A stretch of 34,716 bases of DNA from Methanobacteriota archaeon (GCA_002731655.1 PCCI01000018.1:15545-50260), one strand, 5' to 3'; positions 20,007 to 28,262 are shown, numbered from the stretch's first letter. Notes: generated from the letters alone by a model not told the origin. A program made the numbers and translations.

Positions 20007-20435
20007 ATGGACCCCCGCCTCGTGGCGGTTAGCCTGCTGCTGCTGGCCGCGACGCCGAGCTGCCAGGAGCCAAACCCTGCGCGCACCGTCGTCAGCCTAC
20101 AACTCGACTGGGATGGTGAGCAGGCATGGGTCTACATCTATACGACGCCACGGGTGCGGATGGACAACCTGACTATCGCCTTCGGGAACGATATGCTGCG
20201 CGAGCCTGGGGTCTATACGCTCCAGCGTGCGACCGACGCTGTCGAGTTCAGCCTGACGGTCGAGGCGGAGCTCTTGGGCGTCTTCTGGGGCTTCAGCGGT
20301 AACATCATACTCGAGGATCAGGGGCTTGAGGAACCGGAGTATCACGCGCTGGTCGAAATCCCGGTTGAGGACTCCGAACCACGCGAAGAGGACTGGGGGC
20401 TGCCACGCAGCCGCCCGCTGGAGCGACTGCCATGA
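20007..20435 (+). CDS. Putative lipoprotein, unknown function
   Basis: A 142-residue protein with a short hydrophobic signal (LVAVSLLLLAATPSC), where the Cys near residue 19 could be a lipobox cysteine. Archaeal lipoproteins are anchored on the outer face of the membrane by this residue. The mature part is acidic and beta-rich with several Trp/Tyr (VVSLQLDWDGEQAWVYIYTT), with no domain I can name. The ATG at 20007 lies 24 bases after a T-rich TATA box; the frame continues upstream to 19635 but that part is antisense to the SecB-like gene and not protein-like. Its stop overlaps the next start by four bases (ATGA), so it is co-translated with the two-TM protein, and the pair may form a membrane complex. 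Confidence 0.7.
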   Translation: MDPRLVAVSLLLLAATPSCQEPNPARTVVSLQLDWDGEQAWVYIYTTPRVRMDNLTIAFGNDMLREPGVYTLQRATDAVEFSLTVEAELLGVFWGFSGNIILEDQGLEEPEYHALVEIPVEDSEPREEDWGLPRSRPLERLP

Positions 20436-20773
20436 ACCTGCTGCGCGCGCCGCTCAGCTTCCAGCTCACGATTGCCGCCGTGGTTTCCTTCCTGATTTAT
20501 CTGGTGCTGTTCCAGCTCGGTTTCATCAATTACTCAGTCGGTTGGCTACTCACGTTTTACACCTTCGAGGTGTTCACTGTCGCACTCTTTGCGGTGCTGG
20601 GCGGGGTGCTCCTGGGGATGTTCATCGCCACGCGCGCGCTCTCGAGCCAGGGTTTCACACCGTTCGAGGTTTCGATGCTCAAACTACGCGATGATGTGCA
20701 CAACCTGCATGAGGAGGTCCGCCTGCTACGCACGCCGGAACAGGCGGAACCTGAAGAGGAATCTTCGGAGTAA
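20432..20773 (+). CDS. Two-TM protein with cytoplasmic coiled coil
   Basis: A 113-residue protein. Two transmembrane helices are evident, roughly residues 11-32 (FQLTIAAVVSFLIYLVLFQL) and 42-68 (FTVALFAVLGGVLLGMFIAT). They are followed by a charged helix likely to be a coiled coil (LKLRDDVHNLHEEVRLLR) and an acidic tail (EQAEPEEESSE). Both ends are probably cytoplasmic. I do not recognise the family. The ATG overlaps the preceding gene's stop (ATGA). The next gene has its own strong TATA box right after this stop. Confidence 0.72.
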   Translation: MNLLRAPLSFQLTIAAVVSFLIYLVLFQLGFINYSVGWLLTFYTFEVFTVALFAVLGGVLLGMFIATRALSSQGFTPFEVSMLKLRDDVHNLHEEVRLLRTPEQAEPEEESSE

Positions 20774-20806: not shown

Positions 20807-23737
20807 ATGTCTCACGCGACTCTGTCTGGCGTCATCTTCATTCTGGCGCTGATGCTGCTCTCACCCCTGGCTGGCCTCAGCCTGCCCGGTTCCGACAGCG
20901 GACTGCACCCGGCCAGCAACCCGGACGCAGGCCGTGACCACGGTTCGTACAGCGTCGATATCTACCCGGCCGGCGAAATCGGCCCCGGCGATAACCAGCT
21001 GACGCGTAACCAGAGCCGCACTTTCGAGTTCACGGTCGAAAACACCGGTGGCGATGCAGATACCTATGAAATCACGGCGGTCTGGACCGACAATAACAAT
21101 CTGGGCTGGGAATGCGTAGCCGACGTAGATTCGGTTTCGCTCGCGGCTGGCGCGACCGCGTCGGTCGAGTTCACTTTCTCGACCCCGCGCGCCGGCGTTT
21201 ACGACGGCGCCGAGAAGCAGTTCAAGCTGAATGCCACTTCCACCAATGAAACCACGGTGAGCGACAGCGAGGATTTCAACATCCTTATTGACATGAGCCA
21301 TGCGGTCGACCTCACCATCCGCGGCGACGAATCCATGTCGGCTGAACGCGGCGATATGGTGCGTTTCCAGCTCGACCTGACCAATGTTGGCGACAATAGC
21401 GACAGCTACCGCGTCTCGCTGACCCACGTACCGTGGGACTGGGTCGCAGACTCAGACACGGTCAACATCAACAATGTTGCGGTCGACGAGCTTCGCAGTT
21501 TCTACGTCGATGTCGACGTTCCCGATTCGGCCGAGGAAGACGAGTATGCGCTCATTACCGTGCTAGTAACCTCCAAGGCGACCGGCTTCGACCATATTGA
21601 CGCCGTCCAACAGGTCAACACTACCGTTACCGACGGCCGCACCTACGGGCTGACGCTCACGATTGATACTGGCTCGCAGGAGACCATCCCCGGCAAGGCA
21701 GCCAGCTACTCGCTGACGCTACGCAACGACGGCAACGAGCCGGACAGCTTCGCGCTGGACGCGTCTGCCCTGCCGGCTGGCTGGAGTGGCTCGGTAAACC
21801 CCGATTCGGTCGCCGACCTCGAGCCGGACGCCACTGCTGATATTTCCTTTAGCGTCACGCCTCCTGTGGATGCTGAGGAAGACGACTGGGCGGCCGCTGA
21901 TGTCAGCGCGTGGTCGACCGGCCGCAACCACCACCGCGATTCGGCCGCGACCAATACTTCGGTTCGCATCCCAGTCCGCGGCGTCTCGCTGTCGAGCGAC
22001 GCGGCGGGCAAGGGCGGTACGCCCGGCACGACGGTCAGCTTCACACTTACGCTGGAGAACACCGGCAGCGACCCTGACAGTTACGACCTCTCGCTCACCA
22101 AGCCGCCCACTTGGGACATCTCGCTCTCACAGGTCACGGTCGAGGACCTGGCCGACGGCGGCAGCGCCACCATCACCCTCTCGGGAGTCATTCCCGGCTT
22201 CGCGCACGATACCGATTCGGCTGACGCGACCGTTACCGCCACTTCGCGCGGCAACAGTTCGGTCTCGCAGGCAATTATGGCGACTTTCTCGGTCGACACA
22301 GTCTACTCGATGTCGCTCTCGGTCGACGGCTGGCAGCGCACCGCCAACCCCGGCAACAGCACTACCTTCAGCTTCACTGTCACCAACCTCGGCAACGGTG
22401 TCGAGGACTTCACGATAGACCACACCACCCTGCCGGTGGGCTGGGACGTTAACGGCCTGCCGCACGCCGACCTCGCTGGCGTCAGTGCGTACGGCGGCAC
22501 CGCCTCCTTCCAAGCTACCCTGACTGTCCCAAATGACGAAACCCCGGGCTGGAACAATTTCACGGTCAGCGTCGCCGTCAAGGATAGTTCCTCTATCGAG
22601 CAGCTGCAGTCAATTGCCATCGAGGTCGAGAACTTCGCCGCAATGACTGTCGTGGTCGACCCTGCCGCCGCTAGCAGCGACCCGGGCGCGACTTCCAGCT
22701 ACACTTTCAGCATCACCAATACTGGCAACTCGGGCGACACCTTTGGCTTCTACATCGATGACTTGCCGCCCAGCTGGCAGGTGCAGTACCGGCTCCCGGA
22801 CGGAGGCGCCTACATCAGCCAGATTTCGGTCCCGGTTGGCGAGACGCGGTCGGTCGACATCTTCGTGACTACACTCGCTAGCGACAGTCCGGGCGAGCGC
22901 AGCCTCACCCTCACCGTGCGCTCGGGGCTGAACCAGCGCATCACCCGTGATTCAACGCTTACGCTGACGATTGCCGAGACGCACGGCCTCGAAGTTATGA
23001 CCGGCACCATGGCCAAGGATGGCGGCTCCAACGAGGCGATTCCGTTCTCCTTCACGGTCAGGAACAACGGCAACGCGCTAGACTACGTTTCGCTCCCCAT
23101 TCCGACTCCGCCGCTGAACTGGGAAGCGACGCTCTCGGACACTCAGTTTACCCTCAACCCCGGCGCGAGTAAGACGGTCTACCTGAACCTGCGCACCCCT
23201 GAAGGAGTGTGGGGTGGCAGCCACACCGTCATGGTCACCATCAATTCAGACGAGACCGGTGAGAAGCACACGCTGAATTTCACGGTCACGATTCCAGCCA
23301 GCCCCGGCCTGACGGTAACGCTGGTGCAGAAGAACGACGACGTCAAGGCGGGCGAGGATGGCAGCTTCACCTTCAACCTCTCCAACACCGGCAACACCTA
23401 CGAGCAGATTTCGCTGAAGGTGCAGGGCAAGTATTCCAGCTGGTTCAACCTCCCACAGGCGTCGGTTAACATGGCCCCGGGTGATACGCGCGAGATAACG
23501 GTCATCGCGAGCCCGCCCGGCAATACCCCCACTATGGATACCACCGCTAGCTTCAACGCCACGGTCAGCAGCAACGGTGTCTCGATTCTCAAGTCAATGA
23601 GCCTCAGTGTTGAGGGCGCCCCACCCCCACCGCCGACCGACAATGGTGATGAAGGCGGCTTCTCGATTCCGGGCCCTGGCCTGCTGGCCGCCTTCGGTGC
23701 AGCTGGCGCGGTCGCGCGGCTGCGCCAGCGCCGGTGA
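20807..23737 (+). CDS. 976-aa surface protein with eight NEW3/CARDB-like repeats and C-terminal sorting-like tag
   Basis: A signal peptide covers about residues 1-25 (FILALMLLSPLAGLS). The body holds about eight repeats of roughly 105 residues with the NEW3/APHP pattern 'FTVENTGGDADTYEI ... WEC ... GATASVEFTF'; later copies read TLRNDGNEPDSFAL, TLENTGSDPDSYDL, TVTNLGNGVEDFTI, SITNTGNSGDTFGF, TVRNNGNALDYVSL and NLSNTGNTYEQISL. Many N-x-S/T sites suggest N-glycosylation. The C terminus is a Pro-rich stretch, then GGFSIPGPG, a short hydrophobic segment and RLRQRR, the layout of archaeosortase-type tags. Such proteins form the surface layer or adhesive filaments. The stop overlaps the next start (GTGA). 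The role in this organism is inferred. Confidence 0.88.
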   Translation: MSHATLSGVIFILALMLLSPLAGLSLPGSDSGLHPASNPDAGRDHGSYSVDIYPAGEIGPGDNQLTRNQSRTFEFTVENTGGDADTYEITAVWTDNNNLGWECVADVDSVSLAAGATASVEFTFSTPRAGVYDGAEKQFKLNATSTNETTVSDSEDFNILIDMSHAVDLTIRGDESMSAERGDMVRFQLDLTNVGDNSDSYRVSLTHVPWDWVADSDTVNINNVAVDELRSFYVDVDVPDSAEEDEYALITVLVTSKATGFDHIDAVQQVNTTVTDGRTYGLTLTIDTGSQETIPGKAASYSLTLRNDGNEPDSFALDASALPAGWSGSVNPDSVADLEPDATADISFSVTPPVDAEEDDWAAADVSAWSTGRNHHRDSAATNTSVRIPVRGVSLSSDAAGKGGTPGTTVSFTLTLENTGSDPDSYDLSLTKPPTWDISLSQVTVEDLADGGSATITLSGVIPGFAHDTDSADATVTATSRGNSSVSQAIMATFSVDTVYSMSLSVDGWQRTANPGNSTTFSFTVTNLGNGVEDFTIDHTTLPVGWDVNGLPHADLAGVSAYGGTASFQATLTVPNDETPGWNNFTVSVAVKDSSSIEQLQSIAIEVENFAAMTVVVDPAAASSDPGATSSYTFSITNTGNSGDTFGFYIDDLPPSWQVQYRLPDGGAYISQISVPVGETRSVDIFVTTLASDSPGERSLTLTVRSGLNQRITRDSTLTLTIAETHGLEVMTGTMAKDGGSNEAIPFSFTVRNNGNALDYVSLPIPTPPLNWEATLSDTQFTLNPGASKTVYLNLRTPEGVWGGSHTVMVTINSDETGEKHTLNFTVTIPASPGLTVTLVQKNDDVKAGEDGSFTFNLSNTGNTYEQISLKVQGKYSSWFNLPQASVNMAPGDTREITVIASPPGNTPTMDTTASFNATVSSNGVSILKSMSLSVEGAPPPPPTDNGDEGGFSIPGPGLLAAFGAAGAVARLRQRR

Positions 23738-24402
23738 GTCCCCCGCCCGGCGAACTGGCAGCGCTGCGCGAAGCGACGCTCGAGCAGACTCGCGCTGCGC
23801 TGGCGGAAGCGGTGACGCCCGACCGTGGGCTGCTGCAGGGCGTCAGGGCGCTCGACGAGGCGCTCGAAGCTGAAAACCGGCTCGCCGAACGGCTGGCGCG
23901 CTGGGCGGCGGAAGCGGCTGGCGCAGCGCGGCAGCCACCCGCGGCGGAGCTGCCGCCCGACGCGCCCGAGCCGCTGCGCGAGCTACAGATTGCCTGGCGG
24001 GAGTCCGGAGCGCGCGGTGAGCGGCTGCGCGACTGGCTCGAGGCGCAGGCGCCCGACGTGGCGTCGTCGCTGGCTGCCTTGCTCGGCCCGCTGCTCGCGG
24101 CGCGCGTGATTGCCGCTGCTGGCTCGTTACCGCGGTTGGCGCGACTGCCCGGCTCGACCATCCAGACGCTCGGCGCTGAGCGGGCGCTCTTCGCGCATCG
24201 CGGCGGCGGCGCGTCGCCGCCCAAGCATGGGCTGCTGCTGGCGCATCCGCTGGTGCGCGACGCCCCGCGCCGGGAGCGCGGCCGCATGGCGCGGAGGCTG
24301 GCCGCCAAGGCGGCGATTGCGGCGCGCGTCGACTGCTACGGCGGGGAGCCGTGCGGCGCCGAATTACTGGCGGCACTGGGTTCCGATGACCCGGTTAAAT
24401 AA
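23734..24402 (+). CDS. nop5: Short Nop5-type NOP-domain protein
   Basis: Nop5 is the C/D-box sRNP scaffold that links fibrillarin to L7Ae and the guide RNA for 2'-O-methylation of rRNA. Residues about 105-222 are a full NOP domain: SLAALLGPLLAARVIAAAGS, RLPGSTIQTLGAERALFAH, PPKHGLLLAHPLV and RGRMARRLAAKAAIAARVDC. Residues 1-100 are charged helix that may be the coiled-coil pair. The usual fibrillarin-binding N-terminal domain is missing: archaeal Nop5 is normally about 370-420 residues, this is 222. The GTG start overlaps the previous stop (GTGA), and no in-frame extension is possible because the surface-protein gene occupies the upstream DNA in another frame. Fibrillarin is not in the window. 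The NOP assignment is firm; that this is the organism's only Nop5 is not known. Confidence 0.85.
   Translation: MSPPPGELAALREATLEQTRAALAEAVTPDRGLLQGVRALDEALEAENRLAERLARWAAEAAGAARQPPAAELPPDAPEPLRELQIAWRESGARGERLRDWLEAQAPDVASSLAALLGPLLAARVIAAAGSLPRLARLPGSTIQTLGAERALFAHRGGGASPPKHGLLLAHPLVRDAPRRERGRMARRLAAKAAIAARVDCYGGEPCGAELLAALGSDDPVK
24395..24402 (+). promoter_or_regulatory. TATA box for the DUF368 gene
   Basis: TTAAATAA, centred about 23 bases before GTG 24421. Its last three bases are the stop codon of the Nop5 gene, so the box is embedded in the upstream coding end. Confidence 0.55.
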
Positions 24403-24420: not shown

Positions 24421-25284
24421 GTGCGAATTCCCCCTTTCGCCGCCGGGCTGCTGATGGGCTCGGCCGACGCAGTGCCGGGCATCAGCGGCGGCACGATCGC
24501 GCTGGTGATTGGCCTCTATCGCCGGTTGATTGATTCAATCGCGACGGTGCTGGAATACCCGCGCCGGCGCGATTTCGAGGCGCTACGCGCGCCTCTGGCG
24601 TTCCTACTGCCGCTCGGCCTTGGGATGGCGACCGCCTACTGGCTGATGTCGCGGTTGCTCATCGGCCCCGAAGGCAATCCTGGAATCCTGCTACACGAAA
24701 CCACGGCACCGCTCTGTTATGGCCTCTTCAGCGGCCTCGTGGCGGTCTCGTTGCGCGAGCCGTGGCGCCGCATCGACGCGCCGCAGCGCAAACATCTGGC
24801 GTTCGCCGGGACGGGAGCGGTAGCGACCTTCGTCGTGCTGGGGCTGCCGTTCGCGACGAGCGCGCCGGCCGGCTGGATGCTGCCAGTTGGCGGCGCGCTG
24901 GCGCTGACGGCGATGCTGCTGCCGGGGGTGAGCGGCTCGCTGGTGCTGGTGATGCTCGGCCAGTATGCGACCATCGCCGGCGCGGTGCACGAGCCGCGGC
25001 TGACGCCGCTGCTCTGGTTCGGCAGCGGCGGCCTTGTCGCGGCGCTGGTGGTGGTGCCGCGGCTGCAGCGGCTGCTCATCGAGCGACCAGGGCGCACGCT
25101 AGCGGTGCTCACGGGCGTCATGGCCGGTTCGCTGCGCGCGCTCTGGCCGTGGAAGGCGAGCTACGACGTGCGCGTGGGCGACCTTTCACCGCAGTTTGTG
25201 GGCGAAAACTGGCCCGAAGTGGCGCTGGCGGCGCTACTGGGGGGATTGCTAGTGCTGGCGCTGGAAAGGTTTTCTCGTCGATAG
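24421..25284 (+). CDS. DUF368 (PopT-type) polyprenyl-phosphate translocase family protein
   Basis: A 287-residue polytopic membrane protein with about eight hydrophobic segments. The DUF368 hallmark is present twice as an inverted-repeat-like motif: GSADAVPGISGGTIALVIGLY near the N terminus (given here as its core) and LLPGVSGSLVLVMLGQY in the middle. Bacterial DUF368 members (PopT) return the lipid carrier undecaprenyl phosphate to the inner leaflet; archaeal members probably act on polyprenyl/dolichyl phosphate used for glycan assembly. This fits the surface-glycoprotein and glycosyltransferase genes in the window. GTG 24421 follows a TTAAATAA box by about 23 bases, implying a leaderless transcript. 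The substrate is inferred from the family. Confidence 0.87.
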   Translation: MRIPPFAAGLLMGSADAVPGISGGTIALVIGLYRRLIDSIATVLEYPRRRDFEALRAPLAFLLPLGLGMATAYWLMSRLLIGPEGNPGILLHETTAPLCYGLFSGLVAVSLREPWRRIDAPQRKHLAFAGTGAVATFVVLGLPFATSAPAGWMLPVGGALALTAMLLPGVSGSLVLVMLGQYATIAGAVHEPRLTPLLWFGSGGLVAALVVVPRLQRLLIERPGRTLAVLTGVMAGSLRALWPWKASYDVRVGDLSPQFVGENWPEVALAALLGGLLVLALERFSRR

Positions 25285-25327: not shown

Positions 25328-26692
25328 ATGCGCGTGGTCATAGCCGGCGCCGGCGACGTAGGTTACCGGGTGGCCCGGGACCTGGTGAATCGCGGCCACG
25401 GCATCAGCATTATCGACTCCGACCCAGCCGCCATCAAGCGGGCGCAGGGGCTCGACGCGCAGGTCATCCAGGGCCACGCTGCGGCGCCGAAGCTGCTCGT
25501 CGAGCAGTCGGGGTTGGCGGAAGCCGACCTGTTCATCGGTGTGACCGGCAACGACATGGTCAACATCCTCGGTTGCACCTTCGCCAAGGCGATTGGCTGC
25601 CGCACGATTGCGCGCGTCAACGAGCCGCAGTTGCTCGACTGGCCGTTCGAGCCTGACCCGCAGGCCGTTTTCGGGCTTGATGCCTATATCAGCCCTGACG
25701 AGCTGGCGATGCACCGCATCTGGCAAATCCTCTCGCGACCGGCACTGACGCGGCTTGAGCACTTCTCGGTTGGCAAACTGCGCATCCTCGAAGTCAGGCT
25801 GGACGACAGCTCGCCTGCGGTGGGCCGCACGCTCGACAGCATCGAGCTGCCACCGCACTGTCGAGTTGTGCTGGTTTCGCGCGACGAGGGCATCATCATT
25901 CCGCGCAGCGAGGAAGTCTTGCTGCCACGCGACCGGCTGCTGGTGCTGCTGAGCGACGTCCACGAACTCGAAGAGCTTTCGGAGTCGCTCGGTGCGCCGA
26001 AGGAAGTTACGGGCGAGGGGAACATCAAGCGGCTGATGATTGCCGGCAGCACGCAGGTTGCCTTGCGGCTGGCCGAACAGGTGGCGCGCCGCTACGACGG
26101 GGTGCAGGTCTACCTCGTCGAGCCCGACCGCGCGCGCGCCGAGGAGGTCAGCGAGCGGCTGTCCGACGACGTGACGGTACTGGTGGGGTCGCCGACTGAC
26201 CGCCACTTCCTGCGTGAGGAGGGGATTCGCCACGAGGATTTGTTTGTCGCGGCGACCGAACGCGAGGATTTGAACATGCTCAGCTGCCTGCTCGCCAAGC
26301 GCGAGGGGGCGCGCCGCACGGTGGCGCTGGTCTACCAGACCGAGCTGGAGCACGTCGTGCAGAACACCGGCGTTGACACGCTCATCAACCCCAAGCGAGT
26401 GGCGGTGACCGCCATTCTGAACCGCGCCACGACGACCGAGGAAATCGAGGCGCTGGAGGAACTGCAGGGCGGCGAAGCGTCGATTCGCGAATTCCTGGTC
26501 AAGGCTGACAATGGCCTAGTGGGGAAGTCCATCGCGAAGCTCGAGCTCCCCGAGGGGAGCATGGTGGCGCTCATCAACCGCGGCGGTGAGCCGTTTTTCC
26601 CCGATGAGGACGAAGTCCTGCGGGGGAGCGACCACCTGCTGGTTTTCACGCTCAAGGGGCAGCTGCCGGCGCTGGAGAAGCTCTTCCGCTGA
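25328..26692 (+). CDS. trkA: TrkA, NAD-binding regulatory subunit of Trk potassium uptake
   Basis: A 454-residue peripheral protein with two RCK units, each an NAD-binding Rossmann domain (TrkA-N) followed by a TrkA-C domain. The first Rossmann loop is VVIAGAGDVGYRVARDLVNRGH with the acidic strand end IIDSD; the second begins LMIAGSTQVALRLAEQVARR near residue 237, where the Gly-rich loop is less canonical, with YLVEPD as its acidic strand end. TrkA-C parts include LEVRLDDSSPAVGRTLDSI and FLVKADNGLVGKSIAKLEL. It gates the TrkH channel in response to NAD(H)/ATP at the inner membrane face. trkH starts two bases after the stop, so they form an operon. Length and architecture match full-size TrkA. 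Confidence 0.94.
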   Translation: MRVVIAGAGDVGYRVARDLVNRGHGISIIDSDPAAIKRAQGLDAQVIQGHAAAPKLLVEQSGLAEADLFIGVTGNDMVNILGCTFAKAIGCRTIARVNEPQLLDWPFEPDPQAVFGLDAYISPDELAMHRIWQILSRPALTRLEHFSVGKLRILEVRLDDSSPAVGRTLDSIELPPHCRVVLVSRDEGIIIPRSEEVLLPRDRLLVLLSDVHELEELSESLGAPKEVTGEGNIKRLMIAGSTQVALRLAEQVARRYDGVQVYLVEPDRARAEEVSERLSDDVTVLVGSPTDRHFLREEGIRHEDLFVAATEREDLNMLSCLLAKREGARRTVALVYQTELEHVVQNTGVDTLINPKRVAVTAILNRATTTEEIEALEELQGGEASIREFLVKADNGLVGKSIAKLELPEGSMVALINRGGEPFFPDEDEVLRGSDHLLVFTLKGQLPALEKLFR

Positions 26693-26693
26693 C

Positions 26694-28262
26694 ATGCGCG
26701 GACGCCTGCTGCTGAGTCTGCTGGGAGTGCTGCTGGCGCTGTTCGGCAGCACCTTCCTGCTGCCGCTGTTCGCGGGGCTGCTGCTGGGTGAGCCACGCGA
26801 GCAGGTGGCGTGGCTCTACGGGCTGCCGCTACTACTCTCGGTCGGTGGCGGGTCGCTGCTCTACTTCCAGTTCCGCAGCGACGAGGAGCTGCGCGACCGC
26901 GAAGCGTTCGCGCTAGTGAGTGTGGCGTGGCTGCTCTTCGCCGTGTTTGGCGCGATACCCTACGTAATGGCGGGCGACATGGCAAGTAGCGACGGTGAGC
27001 CGCTGATGGTGTACGACCTGACGCTGGCTGAGGCGTATTTCGAGTCAATCTCGGGGCTGACGACCACCGGCGCGACCGTTTTCGATTCCTCGGTCGCCAA
27101 CGGCACCACCGACGACGGCTATTTCGCAGCGCCCAAGTCGCTGCTGCTCTGGCGCTCGCAGTCGCAGTGGCTGGGCGGGATGGGAATTATCGTGCTCGCG
27201 ACGGTGGTGCTGTCGCGGCTGCTTGGTGGCGGCATCCAGGTGCTGCGCGCCGAGATGCCGGGAACCGGCGTCACGCGCGTCAAACCGCAAATGGCACAGA
27301 CGGCGCGGCTGCTGTGGGGACTCTACGCCGGCCTCACCGTCGTCGAAATGATGCTGCTGCGCTTCGTCGGCGAGCTGCCGCTCTACGACGCAGTCTGCAC
27401 TGCCTTCTCCAACCTCTCGACTGGTGGCTTCTCGCCGCAGGCGGGCTCGATTGGCGCTTACGACAGCGGCCTTGTCGAAGGCATCGTCATCGCCTTCATG
27501 CTGCTGGCTGGCATCAATTTCGTTCTGCTTTACGGCTTTTTCATAAGCTTGCGCCGCAACGACGAACAGCGGCTTTTGCGGGGCTGGCAGCATCTCTGGA
27601 CCAGTGGCGAGTTCCGCTACTACCTCAGCTTCGTGGGCATTGCGATTTCGCTGGTGGTCATCGGCCTCTGGGCGCCGTTACGGGGCAACGGCTGGACCTT
27701 TGGCGAGGCGCTGCGACCGGCACTCTTTCAGGTGGTCTCGATCCTGACCGGCACCGGCTTCACCTCGCAGGACTACGGCAACTGGGCGGTGGCGGCGCAG
27801 TTCGTGCTGCTGCTGCTGATGTTCATCGGCGGCTGCGCCGGCTCGACCACCGGTGGCCTCAAGATCATCCGCATCGAAATCATGCTCAAGGCGCTCTGGC
27901 GCGAGCTATTTCTCGTGGTCCACCCACGTGCGGTGCGCAAGCTGCGGCTGGGCGCCACGGTGCTCGACGAAACACTAGTGCGCAACGTCGCTGTCTTCTT
28001 CTTCATCTACATCATCCTGTTCCTGACCGGCGCGCTGGTGCTGCTCTACCTCGAACCGGGCTGGGGACTGGTCGATGCGATGGCCGCCTCGATTGCGTGC
28101 CTCAGCAACGTCGGCCCCGGCCTCGGCGCGGTCGGTCCCGGCACCAGCTACGCTGGCCTCTCGAGCGGCACGTTGAGCGTACTCTCGCTGCTGATGTGGC
28201 TCGGCAGGCTGGAGATTATCACCGGCCTGCTGCTATTCTTCCCGGGGACTTACCGCGACTAG
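26694..28262 (+). CDS. trkH: TrkH/KtrB-family potassium transporter subunit
   Basis: A 522-residue polytopic membrane protein forming the ion path of the Trk system. Each of the four pore-loop repeats shows its selectivity-filter glycine: SISGLTTTGATVF, FSNLSTGGFSP, SILTGTGFTSQ and LSNVGPGLGAVGP. Two N-terminal helices precede the first repeat, as in TrkH. The ATG at 26694 follows the trkA TGA by one base, and the upstream open frame (from 26586) is antisense to nothing but lies inside trkA and is not membrane-like. K+ import matters for osmotic balance in marine archaea. No oddities are seen. Confidence 0.94.
   Translation: MRGRLLLSLLGVLLALFGSTFLLPLFAGLLLGEPREQVAWLYGLPLLLSVGGGSLLYFQFRSDEELRDREAFALVSVAWLLFAVFGAIPYVMAGDMASSDGEPLMVYDLTLAEAYFESISGLTTTGATVFDSSVANGTTDDGYFAAPKSLLLWRSQSQWLGGMGIIVLATVVLSRLLGGGIQVLRAEMPGTGVTRVKPQMAQTARLLWGLYAGLTVVEMMLLRFVGELPLYDAVCTAFSNLSTGGFSPQAGSIGAYDSGLVEGIVIAFMLLAGINFVLLYGFFISLRRNDEQRLLRGWQHLWTSGEFRYYLSFVGIAISLVVIGLWAPLRGNGWTFGEALRPALFQVVSILTGTGFTSQDYGNWAVAAQFVLLLLMFIGGCAGSTTGGLKIIRIEIMLKALWRELFLVVHPRAVRKLRLGATVLDETLVRNVAVFFFIYIILFLTGALVLLYLEPGWGLVDAMAASIACLSNVGPGLGAVGPGTSYAGLSSGTLSVLSLLMWLGRLEIITGLLLFFPGTYRD

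Follow-up and report, generated by a model that had tools for sequence, protein, structure and literature searches.

A Nop5 without the fibrillarin-binding N-terminal domain in one archaeal family

In the archaeal family studied here the only kind of Nop5 is an orthologous protein devoid of the N-terminal domain (NTD). In Nop5 proteins the C-terminal domain binds the L7Ae-RNA complex, the coiled coil is responsible for dimerisation and the NTD binds fibrillarin (PMC3608112). We consider it fairly probable that the protein of this family serves as a lineage-wide minimal scaffold of the box C/D type lacking the fibrillarin dock, and that fibrillarin is either recruited differently or works apart from it. 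The gene first came to attention in a stretch of 34,716 nucleotides from a Methanobacteriota archaeon (GCA_002731655.1, PCCI01000018.1:15545-50260), which is called the window below. The family of the window (f1) probably corresponds to Marine Group III in the class Poseidoniia.

The nop5 gene, its product and its neighbours

A preliminary description of the window, made from the sequence, reported a very short Nop5 with a NOP domain, no usual N-terminal domain and a start overlapping the stop of a surface-protein gene. The analysis bore this out (Table 1). The lack of a visible nop5 promoter, likewise noted there, agrees with this overlap. The Pfam Nop profile aligned with residues 86-203 over profile positions 91-208 of 228 (E 2.4e-32; 112.7 bits with a cut-off of 25.4), and the protein starts directly at the coiled coil. 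Upstream of the GTG the reading frame is open for 27 codons, none of which is ATG, GTG or TTG. In phmmer comparisons residues 96-211 aligned with residues 248-363 of Sulfolobus solfataricus aNop56 and, weakly, residues 11-58 with its residues 117-165, the first coiled-coil helix; residues 1-116 of aNop56, which form its N-terminal domain, had no counterpart in the window protein. The sole NCBIfam match was the aNOP56 equivalog (138.5 bits, E 3e-40), which falls under the cut-off of 452 for full-length proteins. GAEKALF-like and PKHG motifs are conserved at residues 147-166 as invariant columns, and the C-terminal tail usual in other Nop5 proteins is also short or absent.

The AlphaFold2 model of the protein (mean pLDDT 92.8) consists of helices only, arranged as the coiled-coil pair and the NOP domain. 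Its best matches in PDB are Nop5 chains from box C/D RNPs, with 3nvi among the first four. Since 3nvi contains an N-terminally truncated Nop56/58 together with L7Ae and C/D RNA, its match to the model makes RNP assembly without the NTD physically plausible. Two of the three Nop5 modules, the coiled coil and the NOP domain, are kept, and the functions expected of them would be dimerisation and binding of L7Ae on k-turn RNA, respectively.

Table 1. Features of the nop5 region, in window coordinates
Feature	Position	Strand	Basis and remarks
Small protein of 113 aa, conserved; its gene opens the conserved cluster	20432..20773	+	Synteny; no Pfam match
Surface-type protein, 976 aa	20807..23737	+	Pfam: repeated NEW3/CARDB Ig-like domains; PGPG-hydrophobic-RQRR C-terminal tail
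GTGA, nop5 start over surface-protein gene stop (4 nt)	23734..23737	+	ORF coordinates, upstream sequence
NTD-less Nop5/aNop56, 222 aa	23734..24402	+	GTG start, TGA stop; ORF and translation, Pfam Nop, aNop56 structure matches, AlphaFold2 model
Predicted coiled-coil helices, residues 5-62 and 79-109; Nop5 dimerisation region	23746..24060	+	DSSP on the model; weak S. solfataricus match
NOP (L7Ae/k-turn RNA binding) domain, residues 96-205	24019..24348	+	phmmer, Pfam, invariant columns
DUF368 / undecaprenyl-phosphate-translocase-like membrane protein	24421..25284	+	Pfam VCA0040-like, E 2.2e-52; synteny
Potassium-uptake regulator TrkA, a conserved cluster member	25328..26692	+	Synteny
Potassium-uptake membrane protein TrkH, a conserved cluster member	26586..28262	+	Synteny; true start probably 3' of the listed GTG

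The gene order small protein, surface protein, Nop5, DUF368, TrkA and TrkH is conserved in f1. The tie between nop5 and the surface-protein gene, pointed out in the preliminary description, proved to be a conserved position: the surface-protein gene is located directly 5' of nop5 in 17 of the 18 f1 loci, and the remaining locus is truncated by the end of its contig. DUF368 follows directly 3' in all 18. Gene overlaps or very short gaps make it likely that nop5 shares one transcript with the surface-protein gene and is translationally coupled to it.

Distribution of the short form and search for the N-terminal domain

NOP matches were detected in 17 of the 21 f1 genomes (that of the window and 16 more), and in each of the 15 genomes with a whole readable protein its length is 220-252 aa. 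The two others are G013, in which a contig end cuts the gene, and G001, in which it is split into two frames by what looks like a frameshift within the coiled coil (locus L065). Length comparison with relatives, suggested earlier, gave a difference, as the six Nop5 proteins read in the sister families f2 and f3 of the same class comprise 328-337 aa. In the tree the f1 NOP proteins form one group separate from the sister families. Close pairs of f1 nop5 genes gave dN/dS values of 0.09-0.23 (NG86), and the gene is under purifying selection. Relatives in 16 further genomes, together with these values, show that nop5 is not a chance open reading frame.

The window originates from a metagenome assembly of 1.0 Mb that is 81% complete (G000), and all other f1 genomes are metagenome assemblies as well. 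This incompleteness and the broken nop5 of G001 could raise the suspicion of an assembly or gene-calling artefact, that is, of a frameshift or a wrong start concealing a normal N-terminal domain. Such an artefact is highly improbable given that the short form recurs across many genomes and that the DNA 5' of nop5 is the conserved surface-protein gene, which leaves no space for an NTD in any frame. Start positions that are conserved over independent assemblies also argue against the hidden frameshift considered in the preliminary description. In several genomes of the genus g2, for example, nop5 has a TTG start, and the GGAG in front of it lies where the surface-protein gene stops, at the same place in different assemblies.

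The same description had allowed for a full-length Nop5 elsewhere in the genome, of which the short protein would be a paralogue. Contig C31 (locus L081, 13012 bp) of the window's assembly does carry another NOP gene; this gene is likewise NTD-less and has the same neighbours, and the idea of a full-length paralogue was dropped. Contig C31 is 90% identical to genome G003 and 77% to the window (GC percentages 61% vs. 66%). The window contig and the contig carrying L7Ae are each 96% identical to G001. Judging by these identities, C31 is probably a contaminant mis-binned from a sister species, although the estimated contamination is low. Apart from this contig nop5 is single in each genome; G002, which is 97% complete, has one NOP gene only.

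A profile built from 17 archaeal Nop5 N-terminal domains found matches in 23 of 24 sister-family genomes, and the one missed (G022) has no NOP match either. With the same profile there were zero matches at E<=1 in all 21 f1 genomes, a result that a strongly diverged domain could escape. A Nop5 split into two proteins, with the NTD encoded separately, had been put forward as an alternative and finds no support in this comparison.

Nop5 N-termini differ considerably in the phylum. Most of the proteins start with a TKWFGVFL-like strand; the Thermoplasma-type ones (f22) keep the W[YF]G motif in an N-terminal part of approximately 50 residues, and a short haloarchaeal Nop5 keeps approximately 80 residues. 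Within f1, Nop5 proteins of the genus g2 have roughly 35-50 residues before the coiled coil, without the W[YF]G motif, and those of the window and G002 have only approximately 5-10. In a survey of 196 genomes of the phylum the f1 NOP frames (237-277 codons from stop to stop) were placed at the short end alongside f22 and f20. The distinguishing feature of f1 is therefore the missing NTD and not the total length.

These N-termini also bear on the possibility of a dock that goes unrecognised, either a strongly diverged NTD protein acting in trans or the 35-50 residues of g2 functioning as a miniature dock. The NTD is poorly conserved and can be missed by a profile, Thermoplasma-type proteins already have a small one, and both the g2 proteins and those of the C31 type retain residues before the coiled coil. 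We nevertheless regard such a dock as unlikely, as the window protein and that of G002 retain hardly any of these residues, the profile was negative in 21 genomes, and the extra stretch of the longer g2 version was modelled at low confidence with one short helix and zero strands.

Fibrillarin, L7Ae and guide RNAs

L7Ae is present in all 16 f1 genomes searched. Fibrillarin, for which a search had been proposed, was found in 15 of the 21 f1 genomes, and no fibrillarin was found in the window's own assembly. Its absence there is most likely due to incompleteness, because the approximately 96% identical G001 has the gene. Loss of fibrillarin in the lineage was rejected on account of the copies in the relatives. 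In each of the 13 f1 genomes carrying both genes, nop5 and fibrillarin reside on different contigs; in f2 and f3 nop5 adjoins fibrillarin. The f1 fibrillarin loci that were read (L086, L091-L097) contain a topoisomerase VI B gene, then fibrillarin and then a large helicase-like gene. A tRNA-Thr(GGT) gene was seen near fibrillarin in G002 and G008.

The f1 fibrillarins are approximately 194 aa long and keep the catalytic positions K (in SKL), D (QD), K (LK) and H. They are devoid of N-terminal residues found in most other fibrillarins. The f5 genome G159 (L155), in which the fibrillarin N-terminus is similarly short, yet Nop5 has a full NTD, does not support the idea that the two N-terminal parts were strictly lost together. 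The shortening of fibrillarin is not tightly tied to NTD loss, which counts against the scaffold reading.

Guide RNAs were searched for with strict and relaxed versions of the pattern TGATGA-N8-15-CTGA-N2-10-TGATGA. Genomes of f20 and of the Thermoplasma type yielded the full C/D anatomy in non-coding DNA, one instance being a tRNA-Trp intron. A conserved non-coding C/D sRNA of these genomes (L290, L299, L193) carries GACGGGC[GA]GG before box D, which is presumably complementary to a stretch of the CCGCCCGTC type that 16S rRNA is expected to contain. In f1 all the pattern matches examined lie inside long open frames, and a guide candidate common to four genomes was discarded as its variation resembles that of protein-coding sequence. 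No tRNA-Trp was identified among the G002 and G008 tRNAs checked, and the pattern of an anticodon plus C/D boxes, expected of a tRNA-Trp intron guide, gave nothing tRNA-like in f1. The lack of a convincing guide in f1 counts against a guided RNP there, though the scan is insensitive and gave nothing convincing in the sister families either. A tRNA-Met(CAT) with a 31-nt intron was observed in G008 (L256, 287-394), which recalls the intron-containing tRNA-Met of haloarchaea, where C34 is methylated via a C/D guide (PMC2584109).

Of the three alternatives offered by the preliminary description, a reduced C/D complex, a split Nop5 or a NOP protein with another job, the first has the best support: f1 has no Nop5 other than the NTD-less kind, it retains L7Ae and fibrillarin, and its fibrillarin too is shortened at the N-terminus. 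In this scenario Nop5 would have lost, in the f1 lineage, the domain that holds fibrillarin elsewhere. It would still dimerise via the coiled coil and bind L7Ae on k-turn RNA via the NOP domain, giving a minimal RNP core of the C/D type, and it would probably be synthesised by translational coupling behind the surface protein. The short, separately encoded fibrillarin could either make a novel contact with this core or methylate without the canonical dock. In the complexes studied fibrillarin contacts exclusively the Nop5 NTD (PMC7089733), which makes recruitment without that domain hard to picture. According to work cited in PMC7994747, the fibrillarin-Nop5 heterodimer methylates RNA without guides in vitro, with a Nop5 that had its NTD.

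The other job would mean that guided methylation has been lost and that Nop5 now acts as a k-turn or RNA-binding factor, for instance in ribosome assembly or in the control of the surface/transport operon, with fibrillarin working alone or having another task. This would fit the loss of the fibrillarin dock, the move of nop5 out of the fibrillarin operon into a surface/transport cluster and the finding of no guide RNAs in f1. The RNP motifs of the NOP domain and the coiled coil are conserved, however, fibrillarin and L7Ae are retained, and the scan that found no guides was equally unproductive in the sister families. On balance we find such repurposing doubtful.

The more specific form of the minimal-scaffold proposal, in which f1 runs an RNA-guided 2'-O-methylation RNP on the dock-less scaffold and RNA or a new contact brings the shortened fibrillarin to the minimal L7Ae-Nop5-RNA core, can be advanced only tentatively. 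If true, the supposed sole contact of fibrillarin would be dispensable in nature. A lineage without the NTD and with fibrillarin and L7Ae amounts to a natural deletion experiment, and f1 could show if guided methylation depends on the dock, or if Nop5 has a function that outlasts methylation. It also represents a case in which a core RNP gene is relocated from the nop5-fibrillarin operon to a cluster of cell-surface and transport genes.

Comparison with known systems

The Nop5 NTD has been described as an inactivated RuvC domain, which links snoRNPs to Nop-domain nuclease systems (PMC12045711). TasA, the solo Nop protein of TIGR-Tas, likewise has a NOP domain and a coiled coil and no N-terminal effector domain (PMC12045711). 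It consists of a Nop domain without other domains, and a Tas-like effector of this kind was considered in place of Nop5. We hold this to be a very remote prospect for the window protein: its nearest relatives are aNop56/Nop5 proteins, it is a conserved single gene with chromosomal synteny, there is no PHROG match (best E 0.33), and the window contains no tandem repeat or dual-spacer array resembling a guide array, on which ground the identity was rejected.

The small Nop5 proteins of the Thermoplasma type (f22), f20 and a haloarchaeon are also short (260-292 aa) and have a reduced NTD. Their coiled coil is still preceded by approximately 50-80 residues, which include the W[YF]G strand in the f22 and f20 proteins, in contrast to the few residues of the window protein.

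With the archaeal Nop5/aNop56 proteins of box C/D sRNPs (S. solfataricus 3id5/3pla, Pyrococcus 2nnw/3nmu, Archaeoglobus fulgidus 1nt2) the window protein has in common the NOP domain, the coiled coil and the PKHG and GAE-type motifs, and co-occurrence with L7Ae and fibrillarin is common to f1 as well. It differs from them in lacking the fibrillarin-binding NTD and in its short coiled coil and short C-terminal tail, and the f1 nop5 does not adjoin fibrillarin. It is an ortholog by descent, yet an incomplete Nop5. The same content of coiled coil and NOP domain is found in 3nvi, where the N-truncated Nop56/58 is bound to L7Ae and box C/D RNA. That truncation was made in the laboratory, whereas in f1 it is natural and the only form.
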